DNA of 64,000 nt, from contig NZ_CP119075.1 of NCBI RefSeq assembly GCF_029023725.1, positions 3,839,501-3,903,500 of the forward strand, written 5' to 3'. Positions 3,240 to 61,265 of the stretch are shown here, piece by piece. A program made the position numbers and the translations under genes. Under the pieces are notes generated by a model that worked only from the letters and a program-made list of their open reading frames with translations, ran no database searches and had not been told where the DNA came from. This DNA is from Synoicihabitans lomoniglobus (lineage in GTDB: Bacteria > Verrucomicrobiota > Verrucomicrobiia > Opitutales > Opitutaceae). How positions within the stretch are numbered: the first letter of the stretch is position 1; each line of letters opens with the position of its first letter.

Positions 3240-3284
3240 TCCGCCGCCTCCCCGCGCGGAACCACCGGCCCCCGCACCGCCGGA

Positions 3285-3543: not shown

Positions 3544-3583
3544 CTTGGTCGCTTCGGCCCGGTCCGGTTCGCTCGGATCAACT

Positions 3584-5422: not shown

Positions 5423-5444
5423 TCACCGCGCCGCGCGGCCGATT

Positions 5445-7213: not shown

Positions 7214-7223
7214 GCCGCGTTTC

Positions 7224-8759: not shown

Positions 8760-9119
8760 ATGTCCGACTCTCCCGATCCGCTCGACGAGCTGCTCAAAAC
8801 CTATCCATCGCCCCCGCCCTTGGCCGCGGACTTCAAGGCGCAGGTCCAACAACGCATCGCCCGATCGATCCCGCCCCATCGGCACGGGTGGTGGGCCAAC
8901 CTCAACACCACCTTCGCCCAACCCGCTTTCGCCGTCGTGTTTGTTTTTGCCTGCACGCTGCTCGGCCTGCTGTTGGCGGAAATCCGCACCAGTGCGGAGC
9001 GCAGCCGCACCCACGCCCGGGTCGTCGACAGCTATCTGCAACTCATCAATCCGCGCATCGAACCCGACGCATTGACGACTCCGCCGCCGCGTCGCGACCA
9101 ACCGGAGGACGCCCGTTGA
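8760..9119 (+). CDS. CnrY-like small membrane protein, candidate anti-sigma factor (module 1)
   Basis: A 119-aa protein with a ~55-residue N-terminal cytoplasmic part (DPLDELLKTYPSPPP...), one membrane helix (about residues 56-75) and a short C-terminal tail (VVDSYLQLINPRIEP). It is clearly related to the protein at 48753 (shared DPLxxLL, xxFxAxVxxRIA, [VM]xDxYxxxIxP). Gene order small-membrane/Spy-like/ECF sigma equals that of cnrY-cnrX-cnrH, where CnrY holds the sigma at the membrane. ATG 8760 is preferred to an upstream GTG. The stop overlaps the next start (TTGA). Anti-sigma function is inferred from context and topology. Confidence 0.7.
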   Translation: MSDSPDPLDELLKTYPSPPPLAADFKAQVQQRIARSIPPHRHGWWANLNTTFAQPAFAVVFVFACTLLGLLLAEIRTSAERSRTHARVVDSYLQLINPRIEPDALTTPPPRRDQPEDAR

Positions 9120-9568
9120 ACCGTGGCGCTCTGGTGATGTTCTTCGGCCTCGCCGCCGGACTGATCGCGTTTCAAGGCTGGAGTTCCTGGCGCAACGCCT
9201 GCGACGGCGACGACTTGAGCTGCCAACTCGCCTGGATGCGACAGGACTTGCGGCTGACCGATGAGCAATTCGCCCGGGTGGTGGAATTGCACGATCGCTC
9301 CAGCACCCGCCTGCAACAGCTCGCCCTCGAGATCAGCCGCATGGAGAACGAATTCGAGGCCTTCGAAGCGGCCCGCCGATCGGAAGGTCGCGTCGACTTT
9401 TTGGAGTTTGCCCGCTTCGTCACCGAACGCCGCCGGATCGAAGCCGCCGCTGATCAATCAGCCCGCTCGCTCATCGCCGCCACCGCCGATGTCATGTCCC
9501 CGCTGCAACGTTCGCGCTACCTCGCCTTGGTGGCACCGGCCAGCCCCTCCGGTGCCTCTCCCGACTAG
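9116..9568 (+). CDS. CnrX/Spy-like membrane-anchored periplasmic sensor (Metal_resist-type, module 1)
   Basis: A 150-aa protein with an N-terminal membrane anchor (residues ~5-22) and a helical periplasmic domain containing LTDEQFARVVELHD (residues 47-60), a long amphipathic helix and a final MSPLQRSRYLALV. This is the helical-hairpin plan of Spy/CpxP/CnrX proteins. Start TTG 9116 is set by an AGGA/GGAGG-type site at 9103-9107 and the 4-base TTGA overlap with the preceding stop. Possible ligands are Cys29, Cys36 and His59; the H-x3-H pair of CnrX is not present. The ligand could be a metal, a redox cue or unfolded protein. Confidence 0.7.
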   Translation: MNRGALVMFFGLAAGLIAFQGWSSWRNACDGDDLSCQLAWMRQDLRLTDEQFARVVELHDRSSTRLQQLALEISRMENEFEAFEAARRSEGRVDFLEFARFVTERRRIEAAADQSARSLIAATADVMSPLQRSRYLALVAPASPSGASPD

Positions 9569-9606
9569 CCGCCCGCCCTCGTCCCCGCTCCCCCATACCC
9601 CGCACG

Positions 9607-10188
9607 ATGGAAGAGACCGACCCGGATCTCGCTGACCTGCCGGATCTCCGTGCAGGCGATCCGGAGGCCTTGCGTCGGGTGATGGACCGGTGGGCCAAGC
9701 GCCTTCACGCCTTTGCCTGGCGCTACCTGCAACACACGACCGACGCGCAGGAAATCGCGATGGAAGCCTTTGTGCGGCTCCACCGCTCCAGCGCGAAACT
9801 CCGCGCCGACACCCGTCTGGGCGCATGGCTTTTCACCACGACCGCCAATCTCTGCCGCAACCGCCTGCGCTGGCGCCGCCGCCATCCCGGCGACAGCTGG
9901 GAGGAGATGACCGAAACCGGCGAGCCCGGCGGAACCCAACCGCTGGGCACGGTAAATCCCGACCCCGCCGCCGCCGCGGAAAAATCGGACCGCGCCGACG
10001 CGCTGGTCGGAGCGATTGAAGGCCTCCCGCATCGGCTCAAAACCGTCGTGCTCCTGCATCATTTCGACGGACTGAGTTATCAGGAAATCGGCGACGTGGT
10101 GGGTTGCTCACCCCGCGGCATCGAAACCCGCCTCTACCGTGCCCGCCAACAACTCCGGGAGAAACTCACCAAGCGCCTGACCGACTAG
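9607..10188 (+). CDS. ECF RNA polymerase sigma factor (module 1)
   Basis: A 193-aa sigma-70 family factor. Region 2 runs from LRAGDPEALRRVMDRW through DAQEIAMEAFVRLHR to LGAWLFTTTANLCRNRLR; region 4 is LPHRLKTVVLLHHFDGLSYQEIGDVVG with the helix-turn-helix continuing into [17 protein letters not shown]. It is last in the three-gene module and lies 38 bases after the CnrX-like gene. By analogy with CnrH it would be released when the periplasmic partner senses its signal, and probably controls its own operon. Paralog: 49498-50049. Confidence 0.92.
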   Translation: MEETDPDLADLPDLRAGDPEALRRVMDRWAKRLHAFAWRYLQHTTDAQEIAMEAFVRLHRSSAKLRADTRLGAWLFTTTANLCRNRLRWRRRHPGDSWEEMTETGEPGGTQPLGTVNPDPAAAAEKSDRADALVGAIEGLPHRLKTVVLLHHFDGLSYQEIGDVVGCSPRGIETRLYRARQQLREKLTKRLTD

Positions 10189-10313
10189 ATTCGCAGGCCC
10201 GTGAAAGGATCAAGCTCCAGCACCGCCCACTCCATTAATTTCCTGCGCACCATGCCTCCGCACTCCCGCGCACGCGCATCGTAGCTTTTCAGTTTTTCAG
10301 CGTTCAGCGTTTA

Positions 10314-10328
10314 GCGTTTTAAAAACGC
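10314..10328 (-). terminator. AT-rich dyad after the TonB gene
   Basis: GCGTTTT-A-AAAACGC directly follows the stop codon of the TonB-like gene and is preceded on the plus strand by imperfect direct repeats of (T)TCAGCGT/TTAGCGT. The stem is short, so termination is only a possibility. Confidence 0.35.
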
Positions 10329-13818: not shown

Positions 13819-14988
13819 ATGAAACTGAATCGTAAACTTCGCATGGGCATGGTCGGCGGTGGCCGCGGTGCCTTCATCGGTGCCGTGCACCGCATGGCCG
13901 CCAACCTCGACGGGCAGATCGAACTCGTCGCCGGCTGCTTTTCGTCCGACCCCAAAAAGTCCCGACTCTCCGGCCAGGACTTCTACCTCGATCTGGCCCG
14001 CGTCTACGCGAGTTACGAGGACATGGCCGCCGCCGAGGCCGCGCTGCCCGCTGATCAACGCATCGATTTCGTCTCCATCGTCACGCGCAACAACACCCAC
14101 TTCGCCGTCGCCAAAACCTTTCTCGAAGCCGGCATCCACGTCATCTGCGACAAGCCCCTCTGCCTCACGGTCAAAGAAGCCCGCGCCCTCAAAAAGGTCG
14201 TCGAAAAAACCGGCCAGGTTTTCGCACTCACCCACAACTACACCGGCTACCCCATGGTGAAGGAAGCCCGCGACTGGATCACCTCCGGCAAGCTTGGTAA
14301 AATTCTCAAAATCGTCGTCGAGTATCCCCAAGGCTACGCGGTCACCGCCTTCGAGGAAAAGGGCGACGGAGCCATCTCCAACTGGCGCATGGATCCCTCT
14401 ACCTCGGGAATCTCCAACTGCATGGGCGACATCGGCACGCACGCTCACAACCTCGCCCACTACATCACCGGGCTCGAAATCGAGGAAATCTGCGCCGAGC
14501 TCTCCACCTTCATCCCCGGCCGCCCGCTCGACGACGACGGCAACTGCCTCATCCGCTTCGAAGGCGGGGCCAAAGGCATCCTCTTCGCCTCGCAGATTTC
14601 CAACGGCGACGAGAACAACCTCAACATCCGCGTCTACGGCACCAAAGGCGGACTCGAGTGGCACCAGGAGAATCCCAACGAACTCACCTTCAAGTGCGCC
14701 GACGCCCCGCCCGTCGTGCACCGCCGCGGCAACAGCTACCTCGGGGCCGCGGCCCAAGGCGCGACCCGCACGCCCTTCGCCCACCCCGAAGGATTCATCG
14801 AAGCCTTCGCCAACGTTTACGCCGCCGCCGCGACCGCCATCGCCGACGCCGTGGCCGGCCGCAAGGCGCCCAAAAAAGGCTACGATTTCCCCACGATCGA
14901 CGACGGCATCGCCGGTATGCTCTTCATCGAGACCGTGGTGAAAAGCTCCAACAAAGGCGCCCGCTGGACCAAGTTCCCCAAGGTGTGA
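13819..14988 (+). CDS. Gfo/Idh/MocA family oxidoreductase
   Basis: A 389-aa dehydrogenase of the same superfamily as its neighbour but a distinct subfamily. The nucleotide site is RMGMVGGGRGAFIGAVHR; the usual EKP motif is replaced by HVICDKPLCLTVKEA (DKP), and THNYTGYPMVKEARDWI and MGDIGTHAHNLAHYITG follow, matching the active-site D-x3-H arrangement. The 230-bp gap before it contains a palindromic repeat, so co-transcription with the upstream dehydrogenase is not certain. Probably oxidises the same class of sugar as its neighbours. Confidence 0.92.
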   Translation: MKLNRKLRMGMVGGGRGAFIGAVHRMAANLDGQIELVAGCFSSDPKKSRLSGQDFYLDLARVYASYEDMAAAEAALPADQRIDFVSIVTRNNTHFAVAKTFLEAGIHVICDKPLCLTVKEARALKKVVEKTGQVFALTHNYTGYPMVKEARDWITSGKLGKILKIVVEYPQGYAVTAFEEKGDGAISNWRMDPSTSGISNCMGDIGTHAHNLAHYITGLEIEEICAELSTFIPGRPLDDDGNCLIRFEGGAKGILFASQISNGDENNLNIRVYGTKGGLEWHQENPNELTFKCADAPPVVHRRGNSYLGAAAQGATRTPFAHPEGFIEAFANVYAAAATAIADAVAGRKAPKKGYDFPTIDDGIAGMLFIETVVKSSNKGARWTKFPKV

Positions 14989-15561
14989 GGCAACAGCGGT
15001 AAGCGATCAGCTTTCAGCGGTCAGCCGAAAAGGCGACCGCTGAAGCCCCCCCCGACGCAACCGCTCACTCGCCACAACCGGCGTAGGCCGCCTGCTCGCA
15101 GGCGCTCCCATACCTCGGGCTTTTCTTACAGGAGAGAACCTTGGATAAGGGAGTCTGGATACACCGCGCAGCGACGTAGGCCGTTTGCTCGCAAACGCTC
15201 CCGACCGATCGTGACAGCGGGCGGCGCTCCCAATGAAAGACCACTCCGCAGGTTTTACTTACAGGAGGAAACAGAGATAAACAGAGCCCGAATCCCTAGC
15301 CCAGCGACGTAGGCTATTCAGGCCAATCCGACGAGGTCAGCCGAGTTTTTGGAGGCGCTTATTCGGGTTAATCCGCGCCCTAAATTCACCTGTCACCGCC
15401 TGACGCCATTCAAAACGCGCGGAAAACTCGCTACCTGAATAAATGGGTCAAAGAGCAGGTGATGGACAACATTCTGAGAATCCATTCGGCCTTTCGGACC
15501 TCCTACCATTAGATGCCGATGGTCGCCTCAGCTGACTTCAATCCATCCGCAAACTCAGGTC
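14989..15561. repeat. 570-bp repeat-rich intergenic region (GTAGGCC hairpin array)
   Basis: No convincing gene is present. Two 27-bp copies of a hairpin element lie at 15083-15109 and 15176-15202 (GTAGGCCG-stem-TC-stem-CGCTCCC); a degenerate third begins at 15309. Between them recur TTTT(A)CTTACAGGAG blocks (15120 and 15253). The stem in copy 1 is GCCTGC/GCAGGC and in copy 2 GTTTGC/GCAAAC, so pairing is kept by compensatory changes. The start region also has CAGCGGT/ACCGCTG dyads. Confidence 0.7.
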
Positions 15562-30181: not shown

Positions 30182-31147
30182 ATGAAAATTCCACGCCATA
30201 TTTGCCGGGGTCTCCTGCTCCTCTCCGCCGGCGTCGCCGCCTTGCCGGCCCAACCCGTCGCGGAGCATCGCGCCCACGTATTGGCGATGAGCGGAGACCA
30301 AATCGCGACCATGGTATTGGCGGACACCGGCACCGCAATGGTATTGATTCCTAAACTCCATGTGCCCAATGGGGCCACGATCACGGTGGGTCCCTACACG
30401 CGTCTTCATCTGCAAACCTTCGAGGGTGCGATTACCACGGCGGAGCCCGGCACGACCTTTAAGCTCGAGTCGGCCGATGTGGTGATCACGCCGGATAAAA
30501 AACGCATCGAGCGCACGACGTTGACCCTGCGCAGCGGCAATCTCGTCGCGAATTTGGACCCCAAGAAACGTGAAAAATCACGCTACGGCGTGCGCACGCC
30601 CAAAGGCACCGCCGGTGCCCGCGGCACCAATTACGCGGTCAGCGTGGAGGCAGCCGCCGCCGGAGCCGACAGCCTCACCGTCGTCACCGTGTTGGATGGA
30701 ACCGTGGCCTTCGGTGACCGCGGAAGAGGACCGACCATCGCGTTGCCGCCGGGCACGGGCAGCAACGGAGACTCCAACGCGGTGAAATTGGCGGCGCTCT
30801 ACGAGGATTCCCGCACCGCCGCGTTGGCCGATCGAGGTATGCAGGCCACCGCTGGTTCCGTGGCCGTGCTCATGGATAGCGAGCGTTCGGGCGTAAATAC
30901 CGGCACGCTTAACCGCGTGTTCACTTCCGCCGCCGTCGGCACCGGCGACGTTGCCGTCATCGACCGTATGGCAAGCGCCGCCGTCGCCGCCAATCCCTCC
31001 GCCAGCGACCGTGTCGCCGACGCCCGCAACGCCGCCCTGGCCGCAATCCCTCCGCCGCCCCCGGCGCCCGTCCCGCCCCCGGTGGTCGAACCCGAAGAGC
31101 CACCACCTCCGGCACGTTTGCGTCACCGACGACCCGGCCGCAATTAG
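30182..31147 (+). CDS. FecR-domain secreted protein
   Basis: A 321-aa protein with a signal peptide (MKIPRHICRGLLLLSAGVAA). Residues ~50-170 are a FecR domain: LIPKLHVPNGATITVGPYTRLHLQTFEG, GTTFKLESADVVI, LRSGNLVANLD and GVRTPKGTAGARGTNYAV (the classical R-T-P-x-G-x-x-x-x-x-R-G-T core). A Pro-rich C-terminus (PPPPPAPVPPP) resembles wall or outer-membrane spanning linkers. Classical FecR is inner-membrane and regulates an ECF sigma; this one lacks a membrane helix and a short cytoplasmic part, so it is probably a periplasmic binding scaffold. Neighbours: beta-barrel, ECF sigma, anti-sigma. Confidence 0.85.
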   Translation: MKIPRHICRGLLLLSAGVAALPAQPVAEHRAHVLAMSGDQIATMVLADTGTAMVLIPKLHVPNGATITVGPYTRLHLQTFEGAITTAEPGTTFKLESADVVITPDKKRIERTTLTLRSGNLVANLDPKKREKSRYGVRTPKGTAGARGTNYAVSVEAAAAGADSLTVVTVLDGTVAFGDRGRGPTIALPPGTGSNGDSNAVKLAALYEDSRTAALADRGMQATAGSVAVLMDSERSGVNTGTLNRVFTSAAVGTGDVAVIDRMASAAVAANPSASDRVADARNAALAAIPPPPPAPVPPPVVEPEEPPPPARLRHRRPGRN

Positions 31148-32049: not shown

Positions 32050-32607
32050 GTGGCTCCGTTCGATGCAGACGCGCTCGAAGCGCACCGTCGTCTGGTCGCC
32101 CGCCTCTGCGCGGGCGACACCGATGCCATGCGTCTGCTTTATCTGGAGCTGTCGCCCATTGTCCACGGCGTGGTGCGCCGCACGCTCGAGGATCCCGAAG
32201 ACGCCCGCGAGGCCGTGCAGGACACGTTCATCAAAGTCTGGCGGCAGGCTTCGCGCTACCGCGCCGATCGCGGCGAAGTCGTTTCCTGGGTGGTGTTCAT
32301 CGCGCGCAACGCCGCCATCGATCGGGTGCGCCAGGGGGCCCGGCGACGTCAACTCCTGGAGCAGTGGACCCCCACGGACGACGCCACCACCTCGCCCGCC
32401 TCCACCGCCTCGGAACAGACCGATCTGCTCGACACCCACCTCGCCCGTTTGTCCGCCCCGCAACGTCGCGCGCTGCAACTCGCGTTTTTTGCGGGCTGCA
32501 CCCAAACGGAAATTTCCTCCACCATGAAAATCCCGGTGGGTAACGTTAAGAATCACCTGCGCCGCGGACTTTCGAAACTGCGTCAATGGGTCGCCAGCCA
32601 TGAATAA
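32050..32607 (+). CDS. ECF RNA polymerase sigma factor (with RskA-type anti-sigma)
   Basis: A 185-aa sigma with region 2 (LCAGDTDAMRLLYLELS ... DAREAVQDTFIKVWRQA ... VVSWVVFIARNAAIDRVR) and region 4 (LSAPQRRALQLAFFAGCTQTEISSTMKIPVGNVKNHLRRGL). This resembles the SigK/ECF group with an RskA partner. GTG 32050 is the start; the anti-sigma gene overlaps the end by 8 bases (ATGAATAA), indicating coupled translation. Confidence 0.92.
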   Translation: MAPFDADALEAHRRLVARLCAGDTDAMRLLYLELSPIVHGVVRRTLEDPEDAREAVQDTFIKVWRQASRYRADRGEVVSWVVFIARNAAIDRVRQGARRRQLLEQWTPTDDATTSPASTASEQTDLLDTHLARLSAPQRRALQLAFFAGCTQTEISSTMKIPVGNVKNHLRRGLSKLRQWVASHE

Positions 32608-33820
32608 GGATCTGGAAACCACCGCCCTGCACTACCTGCTCGACGAGCTGGATCCGACCGAGCGCACCGCGTTCGAACACCGCCTGGCCAACGACCCCGC
32701 TGCGGCCGCCATGCTCAAATCCTGCAGCGCCGCCCTCACTCATTTCGCGCGCCAGGAAGCCCCCGCCGAAACGCTGCCCGCAGCGGCGCAACGCGACACC
32801 CTCCAGCACATTCTCGGCACCATCGCCGCCGAACCACCACGGCGGTCGCGGCGATCCACCCTGCTCCGCCGCTGGGCTTGGCCCCTGGCCGCCTGCCTCC
32901 TGCTGGGCCTCAATCTCGTTCAACTCTCCTCACCCGATTCGCGGATCAGCGACGGCCCCCAAACCGCCGCCTCACCGGCGACCGGATCATCGACCGCGTC
33001 GACGCCGGAACCGACATCCGCAACCGCAGCCGTCATCGGCGGACAGGAAACCACCATCGACCAACTCGATCTCGGCACCCTCATCGCCGCGCTGACCGAG
33101 GGTTACGCCGACGGTGCCGAACCGCCCATCATTCAAGAGCTGCGCCGGCTGAAATCAATCCGGTTGCAGTATGGCAAACTGCAGGAGGATCACGAAGCAC
33201 TGCGGGAACAACACCTCGCCGTCATCCAACAAATCGCACAGCTCGCCCTCGTCGATCAGGGAGTGGGCCGACTCGCCGCCATGGAACTGGTCGACCCCAC
33301 CAGCTACGAACTCGGCCAACGCAAGGGGTTGCTCGATCTGGCCCTCGATTTGCTGACCGAACCCGGCATCGTGGCCTTGGAACCCCAGACCCCCGACCCT
33401 GAATTTCCCGACGGCGAAGAGCCCAATGTGGCCTCGCCGGATGAGCCCGCCAATGAAGTTCCCGACCCCACCGATCCGGCGACTCCAGACGACGGCACCG
33501 GTGACCCGACCAACGTCACCCCGGAAGATCCCTATGCATGGTCCGTCTTCGACGAGAGCAACCACCGTGGCTACCTGAACCTCTACAACCTGCCCTTCCC
33601 GGCCGCGGAAACGTCGCTCCAACTTTGGGTGAAACCCTCCGCCACCAGCCCCTACCAACGCGTCGGCGAAGTGCCGTCCCAATTCTACGGCGGCGACGGT
33701 AGTCTCTTCTACACCCTCCCGGGCGCCACTCAACCGCCGACCGAAATTCTCATCACCCAGGAACCCGTGGGCAGCGAGCCTCCTCAACCCACCGGACCAA
33801 CCGTGCTGCGCGGACCGTAG
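32600..33820 (+). CDS. RskA-like anti-sigma factor
   Basis: A 406-aa protein. The N-terminal anti-sigma part (ALHYLLDELDPTERTAFEHRLANDPAAA, residues ~8-35) would hold the sigma; a membrane helix is at about residues 93-110; a long Thr/Pro/Asp-rich periplasmic linker with a heptad-like coiled coil (~180-215) follows; the C-terminal RskA_C domain is at ~305-406 (AWSVFDESNHRGYLNLYNLP ... SLQLWVK). The signal is presumably sensed outside the membrane and the factor cleaved, as for RskA. Longer than typical RskA (about 230-260 aa) because of the linker. Confidence 0.9.
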   Translation: MNKDLETTALHYLLDELDPTERTAFEHRLANDPAAAAMLKSCSAALTHFARQEAPAETLPAAAQRDTLQHILGTIAAEPPRRSRRSTLLRRWAWPLAACLLLGLNLVQLSSPDSRISDGPQTAASPATGSSTASTPEPTSATAAVIGGQETTIDQLDLGTLIAALTEGYADGAEPPIIQELRRLKSIRLQYGKLQEDHEALREQHLAVIQQIAQLALVDQGVGRLAAMELVDPTSYELGQRKGLLDLALDLLTEPGIVALEPQTPDPEFPDGEEPNVASPDEPANEVPDPTDPATPDDGTGDPTNVTPEDPYAWSVFDESNHRGYLNLYNLPFPAAETSLQLWVKPSATSPYQRVGEVPSQFYGGDGSLFYTLPGATQPPTEILITQEPVGSEPPQPTGPTVLRGP

Positions 33821-45913: not shown

Positions 45914-48242
45914 GATTTTCCTGAGACCAGCTTGGGAAAGGCTGAAGGCGATGAGGCTCCCCTTTCCTTATCTGCTAGAGGTAGGGCGTGCTCGCCGAGC
46001 GCGCCGCGAAGAACGTCCAACAGCACATGTGGCGAGGCCAACGATCCCAGCGGTTTCGGCGAAACCGCCCTACCTCAAACCCTCCGCAATCCTGCTCGGC
46101 GTGGTTTTTTCCAGCCTGCTCTGCGCCGCCGCGCCGATCGATCGCGAAGCCCTCGTCACGCGCCACCATCCGAGCGTGACGAGCGTCGACCCATGGTCGC
46201 CCTTTACCGTCGGCAACGGCGGCTTCGCCATGACGGTCGACGTCACCGGCCTGCAGAGTTTCCCGGAAGCCTACCGCGACGGCATTCCGCTGAGCATCCA
46301 AAGCGACTGGGGCTGGCACAGCTTTTCCAACCCCGAGGGCTACCAACTTTCGGATACGCTCGAGGACTTTTCCACAGGCGACCGCGACGTTTCCTATCCC
46401 ACCAATCAGACGACTGCCGCCGGTCAATGGCTCCGCAGCAATCCCCACCGGCTCGGCCTCGGCCGTATCGGTTTCGAATTCACTTTGGAGGACGGCTCAA
46501 TCGCCGCGCTCGAAGACATCACTGAAATCCACCAGGAGTTGAATCTCTGGACGGGGGAAATTCACAGCACCTACCAGGTCGGTGGAAAGCCCGTTAAGGT
46601 CATCACTGCCGTGCACCCCGATCGAGATGAAATCGCGGTGCAGATCGACTCTGAGTTAATGACCCGAGGTGCGATCCGGGTGCGAATCGGTTTCCCCTAC
46701 GGCAGCGATGCGTGGGGAATCGAACCGGAGGATTGGACGCAATCCACGCGGCACCAATCCGCTGCTTTCGAACACACCGGGGCGGTTGATTTAATCACGA
46801 CCGGTGGGCCCGATAAATCGCGGCAGCGGCTTCCCCAAAGCGTAACCTTCACGCACACCCTGGACGAAAACGAATACCGGGTTTACGCCGCGAGCGACGG
46901 AGAACTAGCGACCCGACGCGAAGCACCCCACCAATGGATTTTGCAACTGCAGCCCCAGGACGGAAACCACTGGAGCGGAAAATTCCTGTTCACTTTGCCC
47001 CGATTCGAGAATGGACGGCCCGAACACCAACTATCGGACAATGCGCAGCCCGTCCTCCAAGCCAGTCGACAATTTTGGCGCCGGTTCTGGACCGACGGTG
47101 CCGCCGTCGATTTCTCCGGCAGCACCGACCCCCGCGCGGCTGAACTCGAACGCCGCATCATCCTTTCGCAATACCTCACCGCCGTGCAATGCGCCGGCGA
47201 TATGCCGCCGCAGGAAACCGGACTCACGTTTAATTCCTGGTATGGTGTGGCGCACTTGGAAATGCACTGGTGGCACGGCACGCACTTTGCGCAGTGGGGT
47301 CGTTTCGAGCTGCTGGAACGCAGTCTCCCGTGGTATCAAACCATCCTGCCGCAAGCGCGCGCCATCGCGGAGCGTCAGGGTTACGCCGGGGTGCGTTGGC
47401 CCAAGATGGTCGATCGCGCGGGCCACGAAAAACCATCCGCGATCGCTCCGTTGCTCCTGTGGCAACAGCCCCACGCCATCTACTTTGCTGAGCTGGCGTG
47501 GCGACAAAACCCGACGCCCGCCACCTTGGCCACCTATCGCGAAATCGTCGCGGAGACAGCCGCCTTCATGGCCGATTTTCCGCTGCTCAACCCCGCGACC
47601 GGTCAACTCGATCTGGGCCCGCCCATGATCCCGGCGCAGGAAAGTTACGATCCCCGCACGACCAAGAATCCGCCCTTCGAACTCGCTTACTGGCAATGGG
47701 GGCTGCGCACCGCCCAAGCCTGGCGCGAACGCCTCGGGCAGGAGCGCGATCCGCACTGGGATGTCGTCCTCGCACAGCTCGCGCCGTATCCGGAATACGA
47801 GGACGTTTACGCCACCGCCGACGGCGCGTGGAACATGATCGACCATCCCAGCGTGCTCGGTGCGTTCGGCATGTTGCCCGGCGACGACATCGACCGTGAA
47901 CGCATGCGTCGCACCCTGCATCGCGTCATGCAAGAGCAGGATTGGGGACACACGTGGGGCTGGGACTATCCCCTCATCGCTCTGACCGCCGCCCGTCTCG
48001 GCGAAACCGCGCTGGCCATCGATGCCCTGCTCCTCGACCAGCCCAAAAACACCTACCTCCCCAACGGTCACAACTATCAGGATGATCGCCTCCGCATCTA
48101 TCTCCCGGGCAATGGCGCCCTGCTCACCGCCGTCGCCCTGATGGCCGGCGGTTGGGATGGCGCGCCCGCCGGCAACGCCCCCGGTTTCCCGGCCGACGGC
48201 ACCTGGGTCGTGCGCGCCGAGGGTTTCCATCGGCTGCCTTGA
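45906..48242 (+). CDS. Six-hairpin (alpha/alpha)6 glycosidase-like protein
   Basis: A large open frame (778 codons). The mature part contains TVGNGGFAMTVDVTGLQSFPE and the NSWYGVAHLEMHWWHGTHFA block (residues ~442-461) with the probable catalytic acid, like GH65/GH95-type six-hairpin enzymes. ATG 45906 overlaps the GH31 stop, supporting coupling, but then the signal-like segment (AILLGVVFSSLLCAAAP) starts only at residue ~61. A palindromic repeat lies within the first 57 codons; GTG 46029 inside it gives a normal signal-peptide position and may be the true start. GH31 is the likely partner enzyme. Confidence 0.82.
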   Translation: MTKIFLRPAWERLKAMRLPFPYLLEVGRARRARREERPTAHVARPTIPAVSAKPPYLKPSAILLGVVFSSLLCAAAPIDREALVTRHHPSVTSVDPWSPFTVGNGGFAMTVDVTGLQSFPEAYRDGIPLSIQSDWGWHSFSNPEGYQLSDTLEDFSTGDRDVSYPTNQTTAAGQWLRSNPHRLGLGRIGFEFTLEDGSIAALEDITEIHQELNLWTGEIHSTYQVGGKPVKVITAVHPDRDEIAVQIDSELMTRGAIRVRIGFPYGSDAWGIEPEDWTQSTRHQSAAFEHTGAVDLITTGGPDKSRQRLPQSVTFTHTLDENEYRVYAASDGELATRREAPHQWILQLQPQDGNHWSGKFLFTLPRFENGRPEHQLSDNAQPVLQASRQFWRRFWTDGAAVDFSGSTDPRAAELERRIILSQYLTAVQCAGDMPPQETGLTFNSWYGVAHLEMHWWHGTHFAQWGRFELLERSLPWYQTILPQARAIAERQGYAGVRWPKMVDRAGHEKPSAIAPLLLWQQPHAIYFAELAWRQNPTPATLATYREIVAETAAFMADFPLLNPATGQLDLGPPMIPAQESYDPRTTKNPPFELAYWQWGLRTAQAWRERLGQERDPHWDVVLAQLAPYPEYEDVYATADGAWNMIDHPSVLGAFGMLPGDDIDRERMRRTLHRVMQEQDWGHTWGWDYPLIALTAARLGETALAIDALLLDQPKNTYLPNGHNYQDDRLRIYLPGNGALLTAVALMAGGWDGAPAGNAPGFPADGTWVVRAEGFHRLP
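45978..46076. repeat. GAGGTAGGGCG inverted-end element inside the glycosidase frame
   Basis: Perfect 11-bp inverted ends (GAGGTAGGGCG at 45978-45988, CGCCCTACCTC at 46066-46076) bracket 99 bp with two internal hairpins (GCTCG-C-CGAGC and GGTTTC-GGC-GAAACC). It is the best preserved member of the family, and its reading frame stays open. Confidence 0.85.
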
Positions 48243-48252
48243 TTTCTCCCCC

Positions 48253-48702
48253 ATGCGACGGCCACGACTCTATCCTCCGGTTTGGTTTGTCGCGAATGTC
48301 ATGCTGGTAGTCGCGCTGCATTACTTCGCCCCGATTTCCGTGCCGATGCCGCCGCTGCACATGGCCGCCGGTTCGTTTCTGATCACGGTGGGCATCGTGA
48401 TGACTTTGGTCGCCATATTCACCTTTTCCCGCCACCACACGCCGGTGCTGCCCTTCCGCCAACCGGAAACCCTCCTGTGCCACGGCGTGTTCCGGTGGTC
48501 GCGCAACCCGATCTACCTGGGCGAAACGTTTATCCTGGCGGGTATCGCACTCCGGGTCGGTGAACTACTGCCGTGGCTGGTCGTGCTACTGTTCATCGTC
48601 GGTCTCAACCGCGGCCCGATCGCCTGGGAGGAACGAGCTCTACGTGAAAAATTCGGCGCCGACTTCGATCGCTACTGTCACCGCACGCGGCGCTGGCTCT
48701 GA
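48253..48702 (+). CDS. Isoprenylcysteine-carboxyl-methyltransferase-like membrane methyltransferase
   Basis: A 149-aa protein with four hydrophobic segments and the ICMT/PEMT signature: CHGVFRWSRNPIYLGETF (AdoMet-binding region) and EERALREKFGADFDRYCHR at the C-terminus. Bacterial members methylate lipids or unknown small molecules. It follows the glycosidase stop by 10 bases, probably in the same transcript. Confidence 0.88.
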   Translation: MRRPRLYPPVWFVANVMLVVALHYFAPISVPMPPLHMAAGSFLITVGIVMTLVAIFTFSRHHTPVLPFRQPETLLCHGVFRWSRNPIYLGETFILAGIALRVGELLPWLVVLLFIVGLNRGPIAWEERALREKFGADFDRYCHRTRRWL

Positions 48703-48752
48703 ATCCCCTAAAATTCCCGAGGGTTTGCCGCTCCGCCAACGTAACACTCCGC

Positions 48753-49058
48753 ATGACTCAACGTGATCCGCTTTCCGATCTGCTCACGCAGTGGCAACCC
48801 GCACCCGATGCCGCGCCGGAATTCGCCGCCCGCGTGCATGCCCGTCTGGCCTCCGCCGCGCCTGCCCCGGGGGTGATCACGCGTATCCTGCAGTTTCCCG
48901 CCACCCTCCCGCTCGCGGCGGCATTTGCAGTGATGATCGGGGTGGCATCCGCGCTGGCGATCAGTCGGACCCAAAATCAAAACCTCATGGCCGATGCCTA
49001 CGCCCGCAGCATTGATCCCGTGCAACTCACGGCCTCGACCCACGTGCATCAGCCCTAG
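48753..49058 (+). CDS. CnrY-like small membrane protein, candidate anti-sigma factor (module 2)
   Basis: A 101-aa protein, paralog of 8760-9119: DPLSDLLTQWQPAPD at the N-terminus, EFAARVHARLA, one membrane helix (residues ~52-70) and a short C-terminal MADAYARSIDPVQ. Topology (N-terminus in) and gene order match CnrY. The CnrX-like gene starts 11 bases downstream. Anti-sigma role inferred. Confidence 0.7.
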   Translation: MTQRDPLSDLLTQWQPAPDAAPEFAARVHARLASAAPAPGVITRILQFPATLPLAAAFAVMIGVASALAISRTQNQNLMADAYARSIDPVQLTASTHVHQP

Positions 49059-49069
49059 CCCGCTCGATC

Positions 49070-49501
49070 ATGAAACCAGTGATCCGACTCATCTTAGTGG
49101 CCCTGGTCGCCGGCGTGGTGGCCTTTGGCATCACCAAACAATTGACCCCGGATGCGACCACGACGAGCGAGGTGGCCTGGCTTGAGTCCGAGTTCGCGCT
49201 CACCCCCGAACAAGCGGCCAAAATCACGGCCCTGCACGACGCCTACCGCCCGGTGTGCGCTGCACATTGCGAAGCGATCATGACCACCCGCGAGGCGCTG
49301 GCCGCCGCCACCGCTCCCTCCGAACGCGCCGCCACCGAATCCCAACTCCAATCCCTCATCGCGACCTGCCACGCCAATACCCGGGAGCATCTCCGCGCCG
49401 TCGCCGCCGCCATGTCTTCGGACCAGGGGCAACGCTACCTCGATATGATCGGGCCCCGCCTCACCGCGCATCAACACGCCCAGCCGTTCGGCCTCCGATG
49501 A
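49070..49501 (+). CDS. CnrX/Spy-like periplasmic sensor (module 2)
   Basis: A 143-aa protein with an N-terminal membrane anchor (residues ~4-20) and a helical periplasmic domain: EFALTPEQAAKITALHDAYR matches the module-1 motif, and MSSDQGQRYLDMIGP matches its C-terminal motif. Candidate ligand residues Cys63, His66, Cys67, Cys100, His101 and His107 are more Cys/His-rich than in the module-1 protein. Its stop overlaps the sigma start by four bases (ATGA). Confidence 0.75.
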   Translation: MKPVIRLILVALVAGVVAFGITKQLTPDATTTSEVAWLESEFALTPEQAAKITALHDAYRPVCAAHCEAIMTTREALAAATAPSERAATESQLQSLIATCHANTREHLRAVAAAMSSDQGQRYLDMIGPRLTAHQHAQPFGLR

Positions 49502-50049
49502 GCGAAACTGCGGCCGACACCGCCGACATGCTCGCCCTGCAGGCGGGTGATTCCACCGCACTTGATCGCCTCATGCGCCGCTGGGAGGTGCGGCTGCGTT
49601 CGTTTCTACTGCGCCACCTCGTGTCGCAGACCGACGCCCTCGATCTCGCCCAGGAAACCTTCGTCCGCATCTATCGTCATCGCGACCGGTTCGACGACCG
49701 CCGCCGGTTTTCGACCTGGATGTTTCAAATCGCCCTCAACCTTGTGCGCGACCAAGCCCGTCGTCAGGCCCGGCGGCCCACCACCACCCTGGACGATGCC
49801 CCCGAACTCTCGTCCGAGGTCACACCGCACCACGGCGCGGAAGCGAGCGAAACCGCCACCGCGGTCCGCACCGCGATCGCCGAGCTCCCCGCGCCCTTGC
49901 GCGAAGTGATCGTGCTGTTTGAATACGAACACCTGTCCCACGCGGAAATCGCGGAGATCATCGGCGCCACCCCCAAAGCCGTGGAAACCCGACTCTACCG
50001 CGCGAGATCGCAACTGCGCACCTCCCTCGCCCGTTGGCTGGAACCGTAG
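49498..50049 (+). CDS. ECF RNA polymerase sigma factor (module 2)
   Basis: A 183-aa ECF sigma starting with ATG 49498 overlapping the previous stop. Region 2: [16 protein letters not shown] ... [16 protein letters not shown] ... [18 protein letters not shown]; region 4: [44 protein letters not shown]. Paralog of 9607-10188. Expected to be controlled by the two upstream products. Confidence 0.93.
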
Positions 50050-50167: not shown

Positions 50168-52366
50168 ATGCCGCGTTCGTCCTCCCCATCCCCCGCCTCC
50201 ATCGCACCGCCTCCGGTCGATCGCAGCGGGGTGACCATGCCGCATCGGGAACACGAACCAGTGGTGCGCGTCAACCGCCCCCTCAAGTCGGCGTATTTCA
50301 ATCGCGAGCTCTCGTGGCTGGCGTTTAACCGTCGCGTCCTCGAGCAGGCGCGCCACGCCGCCACCCCGTTGCTCGAGCGCGTCAAGTTTCTCGCCATCGT
50401 GTGCTCCAATCTCGACGAATTCTTCGAGATTCGCGTCGCGGGTTTGATCCAACAAGTCGAAGGTGGCGTCGAAAAATCGGGCTTCGACGGACTCGGTCCC
50501 CGCGAACAGTTGCGTCGCATCCACTCCGTCGTCGCATCGCTGGTCGACGATCAATACCGCATCTGGCACGACGATCTGGTGCCCTCGTTGGCAGATGAAG
50601 GCGTGCTCTTCAAATCGGCGGAGGAACTTTCCGCCCCTGAGCTTATTTGGGTGCGGCAATACTTCGAGGAACAGGTGTTTCCCGTGCTCACACCGCTGGG
50701 CCTCGACCAATCACATCCCTTTCCCCAACTCGGCAACAAGACCCTCAACGTCATCGTCTCCCTCGACGATCCCGACACGACCGAAAACGAGCACCAGGCG
50801 GCCATGCTGCCCGTGCCCCGCATCCTGCCGCGGCTCGTGCGCATCGATTCCGACGGCACCGGCAAACAGACCTACATTTTCCTCACCGAGATCATCAAAC
50901 TCTGCGCCGGCGAGTTTTTCCCCGGCTACAAGATCAACGGGGCCTGGGCTTTCCGCGTGACGCGCAACAGCGATCTCTACATCGACGACGAAGAAGCGGA
51001 AAACCTGCTCAAAGCCATCGAAGAGGAACTGCGCAACCGGCACCGCGGCGCGGCGGTGCGCCTCGAGATCGAGGAAGGCGTCGATGAGGGAATTTTCAAA
51101 ACCCTCTGCGAGCACCTCGACCTTTCCCACGAATACGTCTTCCGCCTCGCGGGCCCGATCAATCTGCTGCGCCTGATGAGCCTGACCGACATCGATCGGC
51201 CCGACCTCAAATACCGCCCGTTCACGCCGGTCATGTCCTCGCCGCTCAAACCGGGGATGTCGCCGTTCGACACCTTGCGTGAACAGGACGTGCTGCTGCA
51301 TCACCCCTACGACAGTTTCGATCCAGTGGTGGATTTCGTGACCCAGGCCGCCCACGATCCCAAAGTCTTCGCCCTCAAGCAGACGCTGTATCGCACCAGC
51401 GGCGACTCTCCCATCGTGAAGGCGTTGATCGAAGCCTCCCGCAACGGCAAACAAGTCACCGCGCTGGTCGAACTCAAAGCCCGTTTCGACGAGGCCAACA
51501 ACATCCAGTGGGCCCGCCAGTTGGAGGAAGCCGGCGTGCATGTCGTCTACGGACTCGTCGGCCACAAGACCCATTGCAAGTGCTCCCTCGTGGTGCGCCA
51601 GGAGGGCAAAAAAATGCGTCGCTACGTGCACCTCGGCACCGGCAACTACAACCCCAAGACCGCCCGGCTCTACACCGACCTGAGCCTGCTCACGGCCCGC
51701 GACGACATCACCGAGGACGTCGCCAATATTTTCAACACCCTCACCGGATTCAGCCGCAAGCCGGTGTTTCAGCGCTTGCTCGTCGCTCCCGTCAACCTGC
51801 ACAGCCGCATGCTCGAGTTGATCGACCGCGAGGCCACCAACGCCCAAGCCGGTAAACCCGCCCGCATCATGGCCAAGATGAACTCCCTCATCGACAAAGC
51901 CGTGATCGATCGCCTCTACGCCGCGTCGCAGGTCGGGGTCAAAGTCGACCTCATCGTGCGCGGCATCTGCGGCCTCGTTCCGGGCGTGCGCGGGCTCAGC
52001 GAAAACATCCGTGTGCGCAGTATTGTGGGACGTTATCTGGAACACGCTCGCGTGATCTATTTTCAGAACGCCGACGGCCAACCCGACATCTACGCCGGCA
52101 GCGCGGACTGGATGCCGCGCAACTTTTTCCGCCGCATCGAAGTCGTCTTCCCCATCGACGATCCCGCGCTGCGCGCCTGGTTCATCGACGAATTTTTCCC
52201 GCTCGAACTGCAGGACAACGTCAACGCCCGCGAACTGCACTCCAACGGCGCCTATTCGCCCATTGCACGCCAAGGCGACGAGCCGTCCTTCTCGGTGCAG
52301 AACTACTTCATGGCCGCCGCCACCCAGCGCGCGCGGGTGAAAACGCCGAGCGAACTCGGGCGTTAA
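50168..52366 (+). CDS. ppk: Polyphosphate kinase 1
   Basis: A 732-aa enzyme that reversibly polymerises the gamma-phosphate of ATP into inorganic polyphosphate. Domains in order: N-terminal domain ([19 protein letters not shown]), head domain, and two phospholipase-D-like C-domains. Key segments: [52 protein letters not shown] with the phospho-His, and the late HARVIYFQN...GSADWMPRN with the second His. ATG 50168 or ATG 50237 could be the start; the longer frame runs into the sigma gene. It lies beside a sigma module, with polyphosphate a common stress effector. Confidence 0.96.
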
Positions 52367-58073: not shown

Positions 58074-61000
58074 ATGAACTTCTCCGACTTCTTCATCAAA
58101 CGCCCGATCTTCGCGGGCGTGCTGTCGATCATCATCTTCCTCGTGGGCGCCATCGCCCTCTTCAAACTACCGATCTCGGAATATCCCGAAGTCGTGCCGC
58201 CCACGGTCGTGGTGCGCGCGACCTACCCGGGCGCCAATCCCAAGACGATCGCCGACACCGTCGCCGCGCCGCTCGAACAGGCCATCAACGGCGTGGAGCA
58301 CTCGCTCTACATGTATTCGCAGGCGACCAGCGACGGCGTGATGACCCTCACCATCACCTTTGAACTCGGCACCAATCTGGATACGGCCCAGGTGCAGGTG
58401 CAAAACCGCGTCTCGCAGGCCTTGCCCAAACTGCCCGAAGAGGTCCGCCGTCTCGGCGTCGTCACGGCCAAGACCTCTCCCGACCTGCTCATGGTCGTTC
58501 ACCTCTTCAGTCCCAATGGCCGCTACGACGACATCTACGTGCGCAACTACGCCACCCTGCAGGTGCGCGACGTGCTCGCCCGGCTGAACGGCGTGGGTGA
58601 CGTGCGGTTGTTTGGCTCCGGCGACTACGCCATGCGGGTCTGGCTGGATCCGGAAAAAATGGCCGCGCGCGGCCTCATCCCCTCCGACGTCGTCGCCGCC
58701 ATCCGCGAGCAGAACGTGCAAGTCGCCGCCGGTTCCGTCGGCCAACAACCGCTCGAACACCCCAACGACACCCAGCTCCTCATCAACACGCAGGGACGCC
58801 TGATCGATGCGGACCAATTTGCCGACATCATCGTCAAGACCGGGACCCACGGTGAGACCGTTCAGCTCTCCGACGTCGCCCGCCTCGAACTCGGCGCATC
58901 GCAATACTCTCTGCGCTCGCTGCTCAACAACCAGCGCGCCGTCGCCATCCCGATCTCCCAATTGCCCGGCTCCAACGCCATCGCCGTCTCCGACGCCGTG
59001 CGCGCCACCATGCAGGAATTGTCGGCTTCGTTCCCCGAAGGCCTCGACTACGACATCGTTTACGACCCGACCATCTTCGTGCGCAGCTCCATCAAGGCCG
59101 TCGTGCACACCCTGCTCGAAGCCATCGTGCTCGTGGTCATCGTAGTGATTTTGTTCCTACAAACCTGGCGCGCGTCGCTCATCCCTCTCGCCGCCGTGCC
59201 GGTGTCGCTCGTCGGCACGTTCGCCGTCATGCTGGCCCTCGGTTTTTCGATCAACGCGCTGTCGCTCTTCGGTCTCGTGCTCGCCATCGGCATCGTGGTG
59301 GACGACGCCATCGTGGTGGTCGAAAACGTCGAACGTAACATCGCCCTCGGCCTCTCGCCCGTCGACGCCACCAAGCGTGCCATGCGCGAAGTCACCGGCC
59401 CGATCGTCGCGACCACTCTGGTGCTCGCCGCCGTGTTCATTCCCACCGCATTCATCGCCGGGCTGACCGGACAATTCTACAAGCAGTTCGCCATCACGAT
59501 CGCGATCTCGACCTTCATCTCGACGATCAACTCGCTCACGCTGTCGCCCGCTCTCAGCGCCCTCCTGCTCAAGAGTCACCACGCGCCCAAAGACTTGCCC
59601 TCGCGTATCCTCGATCGCGGCCTCGGTTGGTTCTTCCGTCCCTTCAACCGCTTCTTCGACTGGGCGGCCGGTCGCTACACCGCCGGTGTTTCCCGGCTGA
59701 TTCGGTTCTCCGCCATCACGCTCATCCTCTACGGCGGTCTGCTCGCGCTCACCGGTTGGGGCTTCAAATCCACGCCCACCGGTTTCGTGCCGACCCAGGA
59801 CAAGGGTTACCTCGTCGCCTTTGCCCAACTCCCCGACGCTGCTTCGCTCGACCGCACCGACGATGTCATCCGTCGCATGGGTGACATCGCCCTCGCCCAC
59901 CCGGGTGTCGCCAACGCCATCGCATTCCCCGGCTTGTCGATCAACGGCTTCACCAACTCCACCAACAGCGGCATCGTCTTCGTGGCGCTCAAGGATTTCG
60001 AGGAACGCCACGGGGCGGGCATGTCCGGTCAGGAGATCGCGGCCACGTTGCAAGGCGAGTTCGGCGCCATTCAGGACGCCTACATCGCCATCTTCCCGCC
60101 GCCCCCCGTGCAAGGTCTGGGCACCACGGCCGGTTTCAAGCTCTACATCGAGGACCGCGCCGATCTCGGCATCGACGCCCTCTACGACGCCGTGCAGCAG
60201 CTCGTCGGCGCCGGCTACGCCAGTGGGCAACTCGGGGGGCTGTATTCCAGCTTCACCATCAACACCCCGCAGTTGCAGGCCGATGTCGATCGCACCAAGG
60301 CCAAACAACAGGGCGTCGCCCTCAACGATCTCTACGACACGATGCAGACCTACCTCGGTTCAGCCTACGTCAACGACTTCAATCGCTTCGGCCGCACCTA
60401 CCAGGTGGTCGCGCAGGCCGACGCGGAGTTTCGGAACGACGCCTCCGATATTGCCCGCCTCAAAACCCGCAACCGGGCCGGCGAAATGGTGCCGCTCGGC
60501 TCGTTCATGAGTGTATCCGAAACTTACGGACCGGATCGGGTGATGCGCTACAACGGCTACCCCGCCGCCGAGGTCAACGGCGCCCCCCTGCCCGGCGTGA
60601 GCACCGGCACGGCGCAGGCGGTCATTACCAGACTCGCCAACCAAACCCTGCCCGCCGGTATGGCGTTTGAATGGACCGAGCTCACCTACCAGCAGGTCCT
60701 CGCGGGCAACGCCGGGCTCTTCGTATTCCCCATTTCGATACTCCTGGTCTTCCTCGTCCTCGCCGCCCAATACGAAAGTTTCCGCCTGCCGTTCGCGGTG
60801 ATTCTCATCGTGCCAATGGCGCTGCTCGCCGCCATCACCGGCCTCTGGCTGACCGACGGCGACAACAACATCTTCACCCAGATCGGGCTCATCGTGCTCA
60901 TCGGTCTGGCGGCCAAAAACGCCATCCTCATCGTCGAATTCGCCGCCCAGCGCCGCAGTGAAGGAGCCTCGCCCGTCGAGGCCGCCCTCGACGCCGCCCG

Positions 61001-61265
61001 CCTGCGCCTGCGCCCGATTCTCATGACGAGTATCGCGTTTATCGCCGGTGTCTTCCCGCTCGTGGCGTCGACCGGTGCCGGCGCCGAGATGCGCCATGCC
61101 ATGGGCGTCGCGGTCTTCTCCGGCATGATCGGTGTCACCTTCTTTGGCCTGTTCCTCACGCCCGTCTTTTACGTGGTGCTGGAGCGCCTCGGCCTGCGCG
61201 AACCACAACCGCAACCCGCGGCCGATTCCGTCGCAGCCGACGATGCGTCCACTCAATCCGCCTAA
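58074..61265 (+). CDS. RND multidrug efflux pump (HAE1 family, MexF/AcrB-like)
   Basis: A 1063-aa inner-membrane pump. It begins MNFSDFFIKRPIFAGVLSI, has the paired periplasmic porter domains (AxPLEQAINGVE; QVQNRVSQALPKLPEEVRR), TM4 proton-relay Asp pair in GIVVDDAIVVVENVERNI, and the second half with GDNNIFTQIGLIVLIGLAAKNAILIVEF. Length equals HAE1 pumps. Substrates are likely hydrophobic drugs or toxic metabolites. The outer-membrane gene follows after 19 bp. Confidence 0.97.
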   Translation: MNFSDFFIKRPIFAGVLSIIIFLVGAIALFKLPISEYPEVVPPTVVVRATYPGANPKTIADTVAAPLEQAINGVEHSLYMYSQATSDGVMTLTITFELGTNLDTAQVQVQNRVSQALPKLPEEVRRLGVVTAKTSPDLLMVVHLFSPNGRYDDIYVRNYATLQVRDVLARLNGVGDVRLFGSGDYAMRVWLDPEKMAARGLIPSDVVAAIREQNVQVAAGSVGQQPLEHPNDTQLLINTQGRLIDADQFADIIVKTGTHGETVQLSDVARLELGASQYSLRSLLNNQRAVAIPISQLPGSNAIAVSDAVRATMQELSASFPEGLDYDIVYDPTIFVRSSIKAVVHTLLEAIVLVVIVVILFLQTWRASLIPLAAVPVSLVGTFAVMLALGFSINALSLFGLVLAIGIVVDDAIVVVENVERNIALGLSPVDATKRAMREVTGPIVATTLVLAAVFIPTAFIAGLTGQFYKQFAITIAISTFISTINSLTLSPALSALLLKSHHAPKDLPSRILDRGLGWFFRPFNRFFDWAAGRYTAGVSRLIRFSAITLILYGGLLALTGWGFKSTPTGFVPTQDKGYLVAFAQLPDAASLDRTDDVIRRMGDIALAHPGVANAIAFPGLSINGFTNSTNSGIVFVALKDFEERHGAGMSGQEIAATLQGEFGAIQDAYIAIFPPPPVQGLGTTAGFKLYIEDRADLGIDALYDAVQQLVGAGYASGQLGGLYSSFTINTPQLQADVDRTKAKQQGVALNDLYDTMQTYLGSAYVNDFNRFGRTYQVVAQADAEFRNDASDIARLKTRNRAGEMVPLGSFMSVSETYGPDRVMRYNGYPAAEVNGAPLPGVSTGTAQAVITRLANQTLPAGMAFEWTELTYQQVLAGNAGLFVFPISILLVFLVLAAQYESFRLPFAVILIVPMALLAAITGLWLTDGDNNIFTQIGLIVLIGLAAKNAILIVEFAAQRRSEGASPVEAALDAARLRLRPILMTSIAFIAGVFPLVASTGAGAEMRHAMGVAVFSGMIGVTFFGLFLTPVFYVVLERLGLREPQPQPAADSVAADDASTQSA

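Follow-up and report, generated by a model that had tools for sequence, protein, structure and literature searches.

What does the three-gene module at positions 48753-50049 of a 64,000-nucleotide stretch of the Synoicihabitans lomoniglobus genome (Opitutaceae, Verrucomicrobiota) sense, and how might the signal reach transcription? The stretch, called the window below, covers bases 3839501-3903500 of the single-contig 5.93 Mb genome, and the module (module 2) consists of Y2, X2 and S2 in sequence, all on the + strand. Y2 (48753..49058) encodes a predicted anti-sigma factor of 101 amino acids, X2 (49070..49501) a membrane-anchored periplasmic sensor of 143 amino acids with the pattern C63xxHC67...C100...H107 (Pfam and AlphaFold model), and S2 (49498..50049) an extracytoplasmic function (ECF) sigma factor of 183 amino acids (Pfam Sigma70_r2, 1.7e-15; Sigma70_r4_2, 2.7e-16). 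Judged from its sequence, module 2 is probably a unit that signals Cu(I)/Ag(I) across the membrane on the plan of the CnrYXH system, copper and silver not being distinguishable here. The analysis shows the genes and their homology, residues conserved in the sensor, a predicted fold like that of CnrX, Cu/Ag-type efflux genes linked to relatives of the module, and a promoter motif in common; from these we infer the identity of the metal, the ligand set, the contacts of Y with X and of Y with S, and the direction of regulation.

The proposed mechanism would begin, without metal, with the short cytoplasmic N-terminus of Y2 holding S2 at the inner membrane and with X2 next to Y2, the helical hairpin of X2 lying in the periplasm. 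Copper or silver in excess there would bind X2 at Cys63, His66 and Cys67, which share one long helix, and at Cys100, which lies opposite them on the second; the His56/His107 pair and the C-terminal His136 would probably join the metal site. The metal-bound hairpin would change shape, the change would pass via Y2, and S2 would be freed to start transcription at GAGGG-N16-CGTA promoters, those of its own operon and of a YHS-like/cusB/cusA/copA efflux operon approximately 260 kb away. With slightly better than even confidence, such modules may be regarded as an undescribed class of copper/silver ECF systems across Verrucomicrobiota, in which the CnrX hairpin would have been rebuilt to take soft metals, with Cys-x-x-His/Met/Leu-Cys on one helix and a Cys and a His on the opposite one, and a cus-copA regulon would be reached via GAGGG-N16-CGTA; a sister class without the ligand set, single-chain fusions included, would then have to sense something else. 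A literature search, with subscription papers mostly outside its scope, found no description of a copper-linked module of Y, X and sigma genes from Verrucomicrobia or Opitutaceae.

Conserved residues of the sensor

A search of 57 related genomes with X2 gave matches in 26 (E 0.001), and a profile run against 387 genomes from the phylum matched in 54 (E 1e-5), counting in both cases sensors of the X1 type, the type of the second, paralogous sensor encoded in the window. The named relatives of X2 are two metagenome-assembled genomes (MAGs) of Opitutaceae and one Luteolibacter MAG. An alignment of 29 X homologs was made that left out two contig-end fragments (L018, L031) and two unrelated hits (L002, L004); nine weaker hits of the X2 search without a locus, one of which is the place of L002, are also absent from it. 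Residues identical to those of X2 occur in this alignment at Cys63 in 26 homologs, His66 in 25, Cys67 in 25, Cys100 in 28, His101 in 4, His107 in 23, His136 in 25 and His56 in 26. Three of the 29 are X1-type sensors, and among the other 26 the counts are 26 for Cys63, 25 for His66, 25 for Cys67 and 26 for Cys100, the exception being L032, which adjoins a cus operon and has CxxxW instead of CxxHC. Because L032 was left out of a further alignment (A1), Cys63, His66, Cys67 and Cys100 are invariant there in 25 of 25 sequences. An earlier, sequence-only reading of the locus had named Cys63, His66, Cys67, Cys100 and His101 as the distinctive residues of the sensor; its numbering is correct and the first four are conserved, but His101, kept in 4 of 29 homologs, is rejected as a ligand. 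That reading did not name His107, His136 and His56, which most homologs likewise keep.

A broader set of 68 sensors (in which L029 and L049 are one site) comprises 35 with CxxHC, eight with CxxMC, three with CxxLC, one with CxxFC and 21 without the Cys pair. These 21 are 15 X1-type rows, five Y-X fusions and L032, and Cys100 is kept in 13 of them. Cys63, His66 and His107 occur in none of the 20 X1-type or fused sensors, and a Cys in column 67 occurs in one (fusion L059). The 35 CxxHC-type sensors, which were sorted by that motif, have Cys100 in 35, Met115 in 33, His107 in 31 and His56 in 30 cases. A comparison of residue 66 (His, Met or Leu) with the type of the neighbouring pump gave no clear pattern among few cases. 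The Cys/His set is conserved in the clade of this genus.

Fold of the sensor and its relation to CnrX

X2 narrowly passes the Pfam cut-off for LTXXQ (PF07813; 24.7 bits versus 24.3) and falls below that for Metal_resist (PF13801; E 0.0011, 19.6 versus 29.2); at E <= 0.01, Metal_resist is matched by 15 and LTXXQ by 9 of 25 orthologs, and CnrX itself matches Metal_resist, which supports the relation to CnrX independently of the fold. The AlphaFold2 model of X2 (mean predicted local distance difference test score 79.8, and 86 to 97 per ten-residue block over residues 31-130) is a four-helix hooked hairpin with a membrane helix at residues 3-24 and helices at 31-42, 46-79, 83-113 and 117-133. The best match of this model in the PDB by Foldseek is CnrX (2y3b; probability 0.99, template modelling score 0.68 by target), and in a VIA comparison the first eight rows are all CnrX (Z 8.6-9.1; 4wwf_A, 9.1). 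Among solved structures the link of X2 to CnrX comes from fold comparison, since this search alone pointed there; a profile of the 25 X2 orthologs matched bicaudal D coiled coils and, in two weak hits, a DUF6827 protein among solved structures, and did not find CnrX.

From the helix boundaries in the model, residues whose numbers add up to about 162 would face each other across the hairpin, which would pair Cys63 with Cys100 and His56 with His107. When CnrX (PDB-confirmed sequence) was added to the family alignment, its E63 fell on His56, its H119 on His107 and its Y135 on Tyr123, and its H42, H46 and M123 aligned to Val35, Glu39 and Val111 of X2, each in 3 of 3 MAFFT modes. If H42, H46, E63, H119 and M123 are taken as the metal ligands of CnrX, a list assumed here in part, one of the five is identical in X2 and one is swapped for another ligand type. 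X2 looks like a CnrX hairpin in which the nickel/cobalt site has been partly dismantled and a Cys-rich one has arisen some two helix turns from it. Of the three proteins, X alone could be placed with its CnrYXH counterpart, in the CnrX superfamily.

Copper genes near relatives of the module

Gene context was counted at 43 X2-family sites by comparing all open reading frames (ORFs) with midpoints within 7 kb all-against-all, some regions ending at contig ends. All 43 sites encode an ECF sigma factor of one cluster 3' of X and on its strand, approximately 6 kb away in the extreme case. A CusA-like resistance-nodulation-division (RND) pump occurs at 19 sites, a YHS-like small Cys protein at 18, a CusB-like adaptor at 15, a P-type ATPase at 6 and a multicopper oxidase-type cluster at 4, and 25 of the 43 sites have at least one copper-type gene; further recurrent neighbours are polyphosphate kinase (7), htpG (5) and a PEMT/ICMT-like methyltransferase (4). 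Pfam searches of representatives of the neighbouring clusters gave ACR_tran, HlyD_D23 with HMBD, E1-E2_ATPase with HMBD, and Cu-oxidase domains with CopB; the last result (one representative) replaced an initial cluster label of DsbD, and the L093 member of this cluster consists of the CopB-like part only. A direct DNA search of 44 X2 regions found CusA in 20 (the match in the window being weak), CusB in 17, YHS in 20, the ATPase in 10 and the oxidase in 5. The YHS counts are soft: the member at L107 is an 825-residue frame of another reading, and at L118 and L121 the DNA matches fall within the pump gene, read in a different frame.

Fourteen X1-type control regions (L134-L146, of which L146 is a fusion, and module 1 of the window) contained no CusA, CusB, YHS or oxidase match and one weak ATPase match. 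The CusA-like pump is found at 19 of 43 X2 sites versus 0 of 14 X1-type sites (Fisher p = 0.0013). L147, which was searched with the controls, is of the L032 type with a cus operon and was not counted as X1. Among 21 neighbouring RND pumps, one of them truncated, 15 have Met at all three positions of what we take to be the methionine triad of Escherichia coli CusA, and CPC and MxxSS are present in all six neighbouring P-type ATPases; these motifs and pump residues are taken here as marks of Cu/Ag transport.

The first gene of many cus operons (L163 8125-8463, L106 10707-11093 and others) encodes a small exported Cys-rich protein (YPLxxCVVSxExLGxMG ... CCxxC ... PxKYL), two representatives of which have no Pfam match at E 0.001. 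At L093, in the Luteolibacter MAG, the module stands just after an outer-membrane/adaptor/RND efflux operon (1446-8420), small exported proteins with paired Cys motifs are encoded nearby (10115-10603, 14511-15131), and a promoter motif site (14632-14669) precedes one of them. The window itself contains a full-length RND pump gene (58074-61265; ACR_tran) with only distant likeness to CusA. Polyphosphate kinase lies 3' on the same strand in the window and at L091, L092, L094, L095, L116 and L119; this downstream kinase and the upstream htpG could indicate a link of the sigma factor to polyphosphate or to protein stress.

Promoter motif and candidate regulon

A 38-base motif was built from eight orthologs with the window excluded. 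The held-out site before Y2 (48708..48745, + strand), a predicted ECF-type promoter with the -35 region AAAATTnnnGAGGG and the -10 region CGTAA, scores 27.0 and ends 7 bases before the start of Y2, and with the final motif it is the sole site above 11 on either strand of the window. The copper-type gene nearest to Y on its upstream side is divergent in 14 cases, and in eight of these (L103, L105, L110, L111, L112, L114, L115, L118) a motif site above 11 faces that gene within approximately 60 bases of the first gene; L132 has one approximately 400 bases upstream. None of the divergent sites carrying a facing motif served in motif building. As background, 13 X1-type regions together with the window gave seven further hits above 11, at five places, in 579,328 positions.

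In this genome the pattern RRGGG-N16-CGTAWNA occurs six times, including the Y2 promoter and a site (L163 8078-8115, near genome positions 4148080-4148120) that ends 9 bases before the first gene of an operon, approximately 260 kb from module 2, encoding the YHS-like protein, CusB, CusA and a P-type ATPase (Pfam HlyD_D23 with HMBD, E1-E2_ATPase). The CusA of this operon scores 864 bits against E. coli CusA versus 524 against ZneA. The hit at 3437886, in the last part of an adaptor gene that an RND gene follows, is regarded as probably due to chance; around 5363438 none of the ORFs of the locus is a copper gene; and the other two hits are at 729692 and 1878502. The predicted Y2 and cus promoters stop 7 and 9 bases short of the start codons, so that the mRNAs would have no leader or almost none.

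The wider occurrence of the motif before cus genes was assessed in 30 genomes, those without X2 being those with no match in the 57-genome search (four of these 12 are less than 90% complete); second fragments (L192, L194) were left out. A cusB match was found in 12 of 18 genomes with X2 and in 8 of 12 without. Upstream of cusB genes not linked to a module, a site above 7 was found at 6 of 12 loci in genomes with X2 versus 0 of 9 in genomes without (Fisher p 0.017), with scores of 13.7 in G000, 18.8 in G001, 16.8 in G003, 21.5 in G028, 11.6 in G226 and 8.4 in G005; 1.4% of random 450-base stretches reach a score of 9.

The Y protein, the sigma factor and single-chain fusions

By hydropathy, Y2 has a short cytoplasmic N-terminus, one membrane helix (residues ~52-70) and a short periplasmic tail with ...SIDP.... 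Its predicted role as an anti-sigma factor follows from its position, its topology and the existence of Y-X fusions. Five single-chain fusions (L055, L056, L057, L059 and L060; ~1080-1900 on the coding strand) join Y to an X1-like sensor domain, with DPxYRL at the joint in four of the five, and each is followed by an ECF sigma factor gene, which suggests that Y and X act as one unit. Y2 matches no Pfam family above cut-off, and it has no match to the CnrY family (PF17524) at E 1, while CnrY itself scores 175 bits; a Y profile gave nothing meaningful against solved structures. A class I zinc-binding anti-sigma factor (Hx3Cx2C) is ruled out, since Y2 contains no Cys.

S2 likewise contains no Cys and ends a few residues after region 4, and a CorE-type copper sigma factor, which would have a Cys-rich C-terminal extension, is ruled out. 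Against solved structures, CnrH (4cxf) ranks sixth for S2 at 63.8 bits, after SigW (70.4), SigH, another sigma factor and two RpoE/SigE proteins, the differences being small. The description of the locus as CnrYXH-like in the sequence-only reading is therefore borne out for the architecture and for the sensor (fold, Metal_resist), but not for Y, which lacks CnrY similarity, and S2 is slightly nearer SigW, SigH and RpoE than CnrH.

Relation between the two modules of the window

Module 1 (8760-10188) has the same gene order, as had been claimed: Y1 (8760..9119, + strand, 119 amino acids), the paralogous Y protein; X1 (9116..9568, + strand, 150 amino acids, TTG start), a paralogous sensor without the Cys/His set; and the ECF sigma factor S1 (9607..10188, + strand, 193 amino acids). 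The further claim that each module has both translational overlaps did not survive inspection of the coordinates: X2 and S2 overlap by 4 bases (ATGA) and Y2 and X2 are separated by 11 bases, with no start codon upstream of its ATG in the open frame of X2, while in module 1 Y1 and X1 overlap (TTGA) and X1 and S1 are 38 bases apart. Both overlaps within one module do occur in the relatives L005, L007, L008, L009, L024 and L028.

Pairwise alignments of module 1 with module 2 gave Z values of 8.3 for Y, 12.3 for X and 51 for S, with the observed score reached by 0 of 1000 shuffles in each case, so that all three pairs, X1-X2 included, are significantly similar; the motifs LTxEQ...LHD and MSxxQ...YL are common to X1 and X2, as the sequence-only reading had noticed. 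X1 matches no Pfam family at E 0.1. The two modules are, on sequence grounds, paralogous and separately inherited families whose split is old, because the sigma-factor tree parts the two types and both recur across the family: in the tree of 60 rows (one X1 locus, L050, gave no sigma row), 43 X2-type sigma factors are separated from 17 X1-type or fused ones with branch support of 96/97. A recent local duplication is ruled out by the recurrence of both types, by the 77-79% identity of X1 to its counterparts in two genomes of the same genus, and by the sigma tree. The duplication proposed earlier accordingly stands as paralogy with an ancient split, and the suggestion that the modules are tuned to different ligands is plausible, X2 having the Cys/His set and copper neighbours and X1-type sensors having neither the set nor a CusA-like pump. 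The window also encodes other regulators of this general kind, as had been reported: an ECF sigma factor paired with an RskA_C-like protein (32050-33820; RskA_C 28.6 bits, slightly below the cut-off of 29.4) and a FecR-domain protein (30182-31147).

Weighing of the evidence and alternative explanations

Several observations weigh against the reading of module 2 as a copper/silver unit built like CnrYXH. With regard to the proteins, the Foldseek E of 0.27 for CnrX is weak and the chaperone Skp is the third match; a VIA Z of 9 is in the range of unrelated helical bundles, for which the tool asks approximately 13; and hhalign gives a probability of 12% to the comparison of the X2 family with CnrX and of 0.2% to that of Y with CnrY. 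With regard to gene context, no copper-type gene lies within approximately 7 kb of 18 of the 43 X2 sites, and module 2 itself adjoins none, its neighbours being a PEMT/ICMT-like membrane methyltransferase directly 5' (48157..48702, + strand; PEMT 4.8e-11; true start maybe further downstream) and a polyphosphate kinase directly 3' (50168..52366, + strand; PP_kinase_C_1 5.8e-78; start codon picked by eye); the copper link suggested for the module in the window rests on its relatives and on the shared promoter. The full Met triad is lacking in 5 of the 21 neighbouring RND pumps (L093, L108, one of two in L118, L123 and one of two in L128), and X2 is not required for cus, because 8 of the 12 genomes without X2 also have cusB. 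With regard to the promoter, at five of the 14 divergent sites (L101, L106, L107, L109, L131) no motif site above 11 faces the copper-type gene; 6 of the 12 cusB loci from X2-bearing genomes lack an upstream site, and G005 has a weak one (8.4) upstream and a better one (13.6) within cusB; the six hits of the pattern in this genome compare with 12 for a reversed control, so that the pattern alone is not enriched genome-wide; and motif matches precede two X1-type modules, L143 (up to 26.5) and L145 (17.3), because of which the two sigma types may share promoter features.

Other readings of the sensor were considered. X2 could be a periplasmic thiol/redox sensor, working through a disulfide or responding to copper-generated oxidants, that answers envelope oxidative stress of which copper is one cause. 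Three conserved Cys residues in an oxidising compartment would suit this, as would the general stress genes near some modules (htpG at 5 and polyphosphate kinase at 7 of 43 sites) and the precedent of the metal-stress anti-sigma factor NrsF, which is reported to be controlled by conserved periplasmic Cys residues (PMC3511200). Besides the Cys residues, however, His66 (replaced by Met or Leu in other classes) and, for the most part, His107 and His136 are conserved, for which reason a soft-metal site fits better than a disulfide, and the linked genes encode Cu/Ag-type efflux and an oxidase; the redox reading is considered unlikely. Sensing of another thiophilic or borderline metal (Zn, Cd, Hg or Co/Ni), with the cus linkage reflecting general metal-resistance islands, is judged quite unlikely: CnrX is described as sensing nickel and cobalt (PMC7689651) and some neighbouring RND pumps lack the Met triad, but the triad is complete in 15 of 21 pumps, all six ATPases show CPC and MxxSS, one multicopper oxidase/CopB protein is among the scanned neighbours, and the CusA of the motif-bearing operon is, by the bit scores given above, far nearer to E. 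coli CusA than to ZneA.

A third alternative applies to this genus, in which the module might have left copper control and might mainly serve polyphosphate metabolism through the downstream kinase. The window and several close relatives do keep the same-strand kinase 3' of the module (7 of 43 sites) without linked cus genes, but the motif precedes unlinked cus operons in the same-genus genomes G000, G001 and G003 and, weakly, G005 (not in G004 and G007), and this clade retains the Cys/His set, which makes a transfer to polyphosphate metabolism very improbable. The reading retained is that of a copper/silver-responsive unit.

Comparison with known systems

In CnrYXH, which has been studied well, a periplasmic sensor of nickel and cobalt sets an ECF sigma factor free. 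If module 2 is a copper/silver version with a different ligand set on the same CnrX hairpin, the way in which one scaffold gains metal specificity could be compared directly, and copper export in Verrucomicrobiota would gain a candidate regulator whose promoters and target operons are already predicted. For the passage of a signal across the membrane, natural controls are offered by the Y-X fusions and by the sister modules that lack the ligand set.

Other known systems share single features with module 2. The SigAb-AabA-AabB system of Acinetobacter baumannii is described as a copper-stimulated ECF sigma factor with a small membrane anti-sigma factor, predicted to bind like CnrY, and a periplasmic second partner (PMC12153292). 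By this description it resembles module 2 in its three components, but its order is sigma-AabA-AabB, metal genes are placed in its indirect regulon, and the available part of the account describes no metal-binding sensor residues (PMC12153292). CorE of Myxococcus xanthus is described as a copper-responsive ECF sigma factor that senses through its own Cys-rich C-terminal extension without an anti-sigma factor (PMC10141476); S2, in contrast, has no Cys. X2 also resembles the LTXXQ proteins in passing the LTXXQ cut-off, and ZraP is among its structural matches (VIA Z 7.9). From ZraP, and from Spy and CpxP, which we take to be LTXXQ periplasmic proteins as well, X2 differs by its N-terminal membrane helix and by the place of its gene between an anti-sigma-like gene and a sigma gene. 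NccYXH shares the membrane-anchored sensor, and NccX (4clv) is among the structural matches (VIA Z 7.3), but NccX is named a nickel-cobalt-cadmium resistance protein; as it is a close CnrX homolog, the same ligand differences from X2 are expected, by homology rather than by residue mapping.

The closest comparison is with CnrYXH of Cupriavidus metallidurans, the mechanism of which has been described, including the need of CnrX for Met123 in signalling (PMC7689651), and of which CnrY is classed as a class II anti-sigma factor (PMC7406223). Module 2 has the same order of Y, X and sigma genes, membrane-anchored Y and X proteins, and a hooked helical hairpin as its X protein, but X2 carries a new Cys/His set, Y2 has no CnrY similarity, the linked pumps are mostly of the Cu/Ag type, and the module belongs to another phylum. 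The best reading is that module 2 works like CnrYXH and differs from it in the ligands of X compared with CnrX, in the sequence of Y compared with CnrY, and in the metal type of the linked genes.

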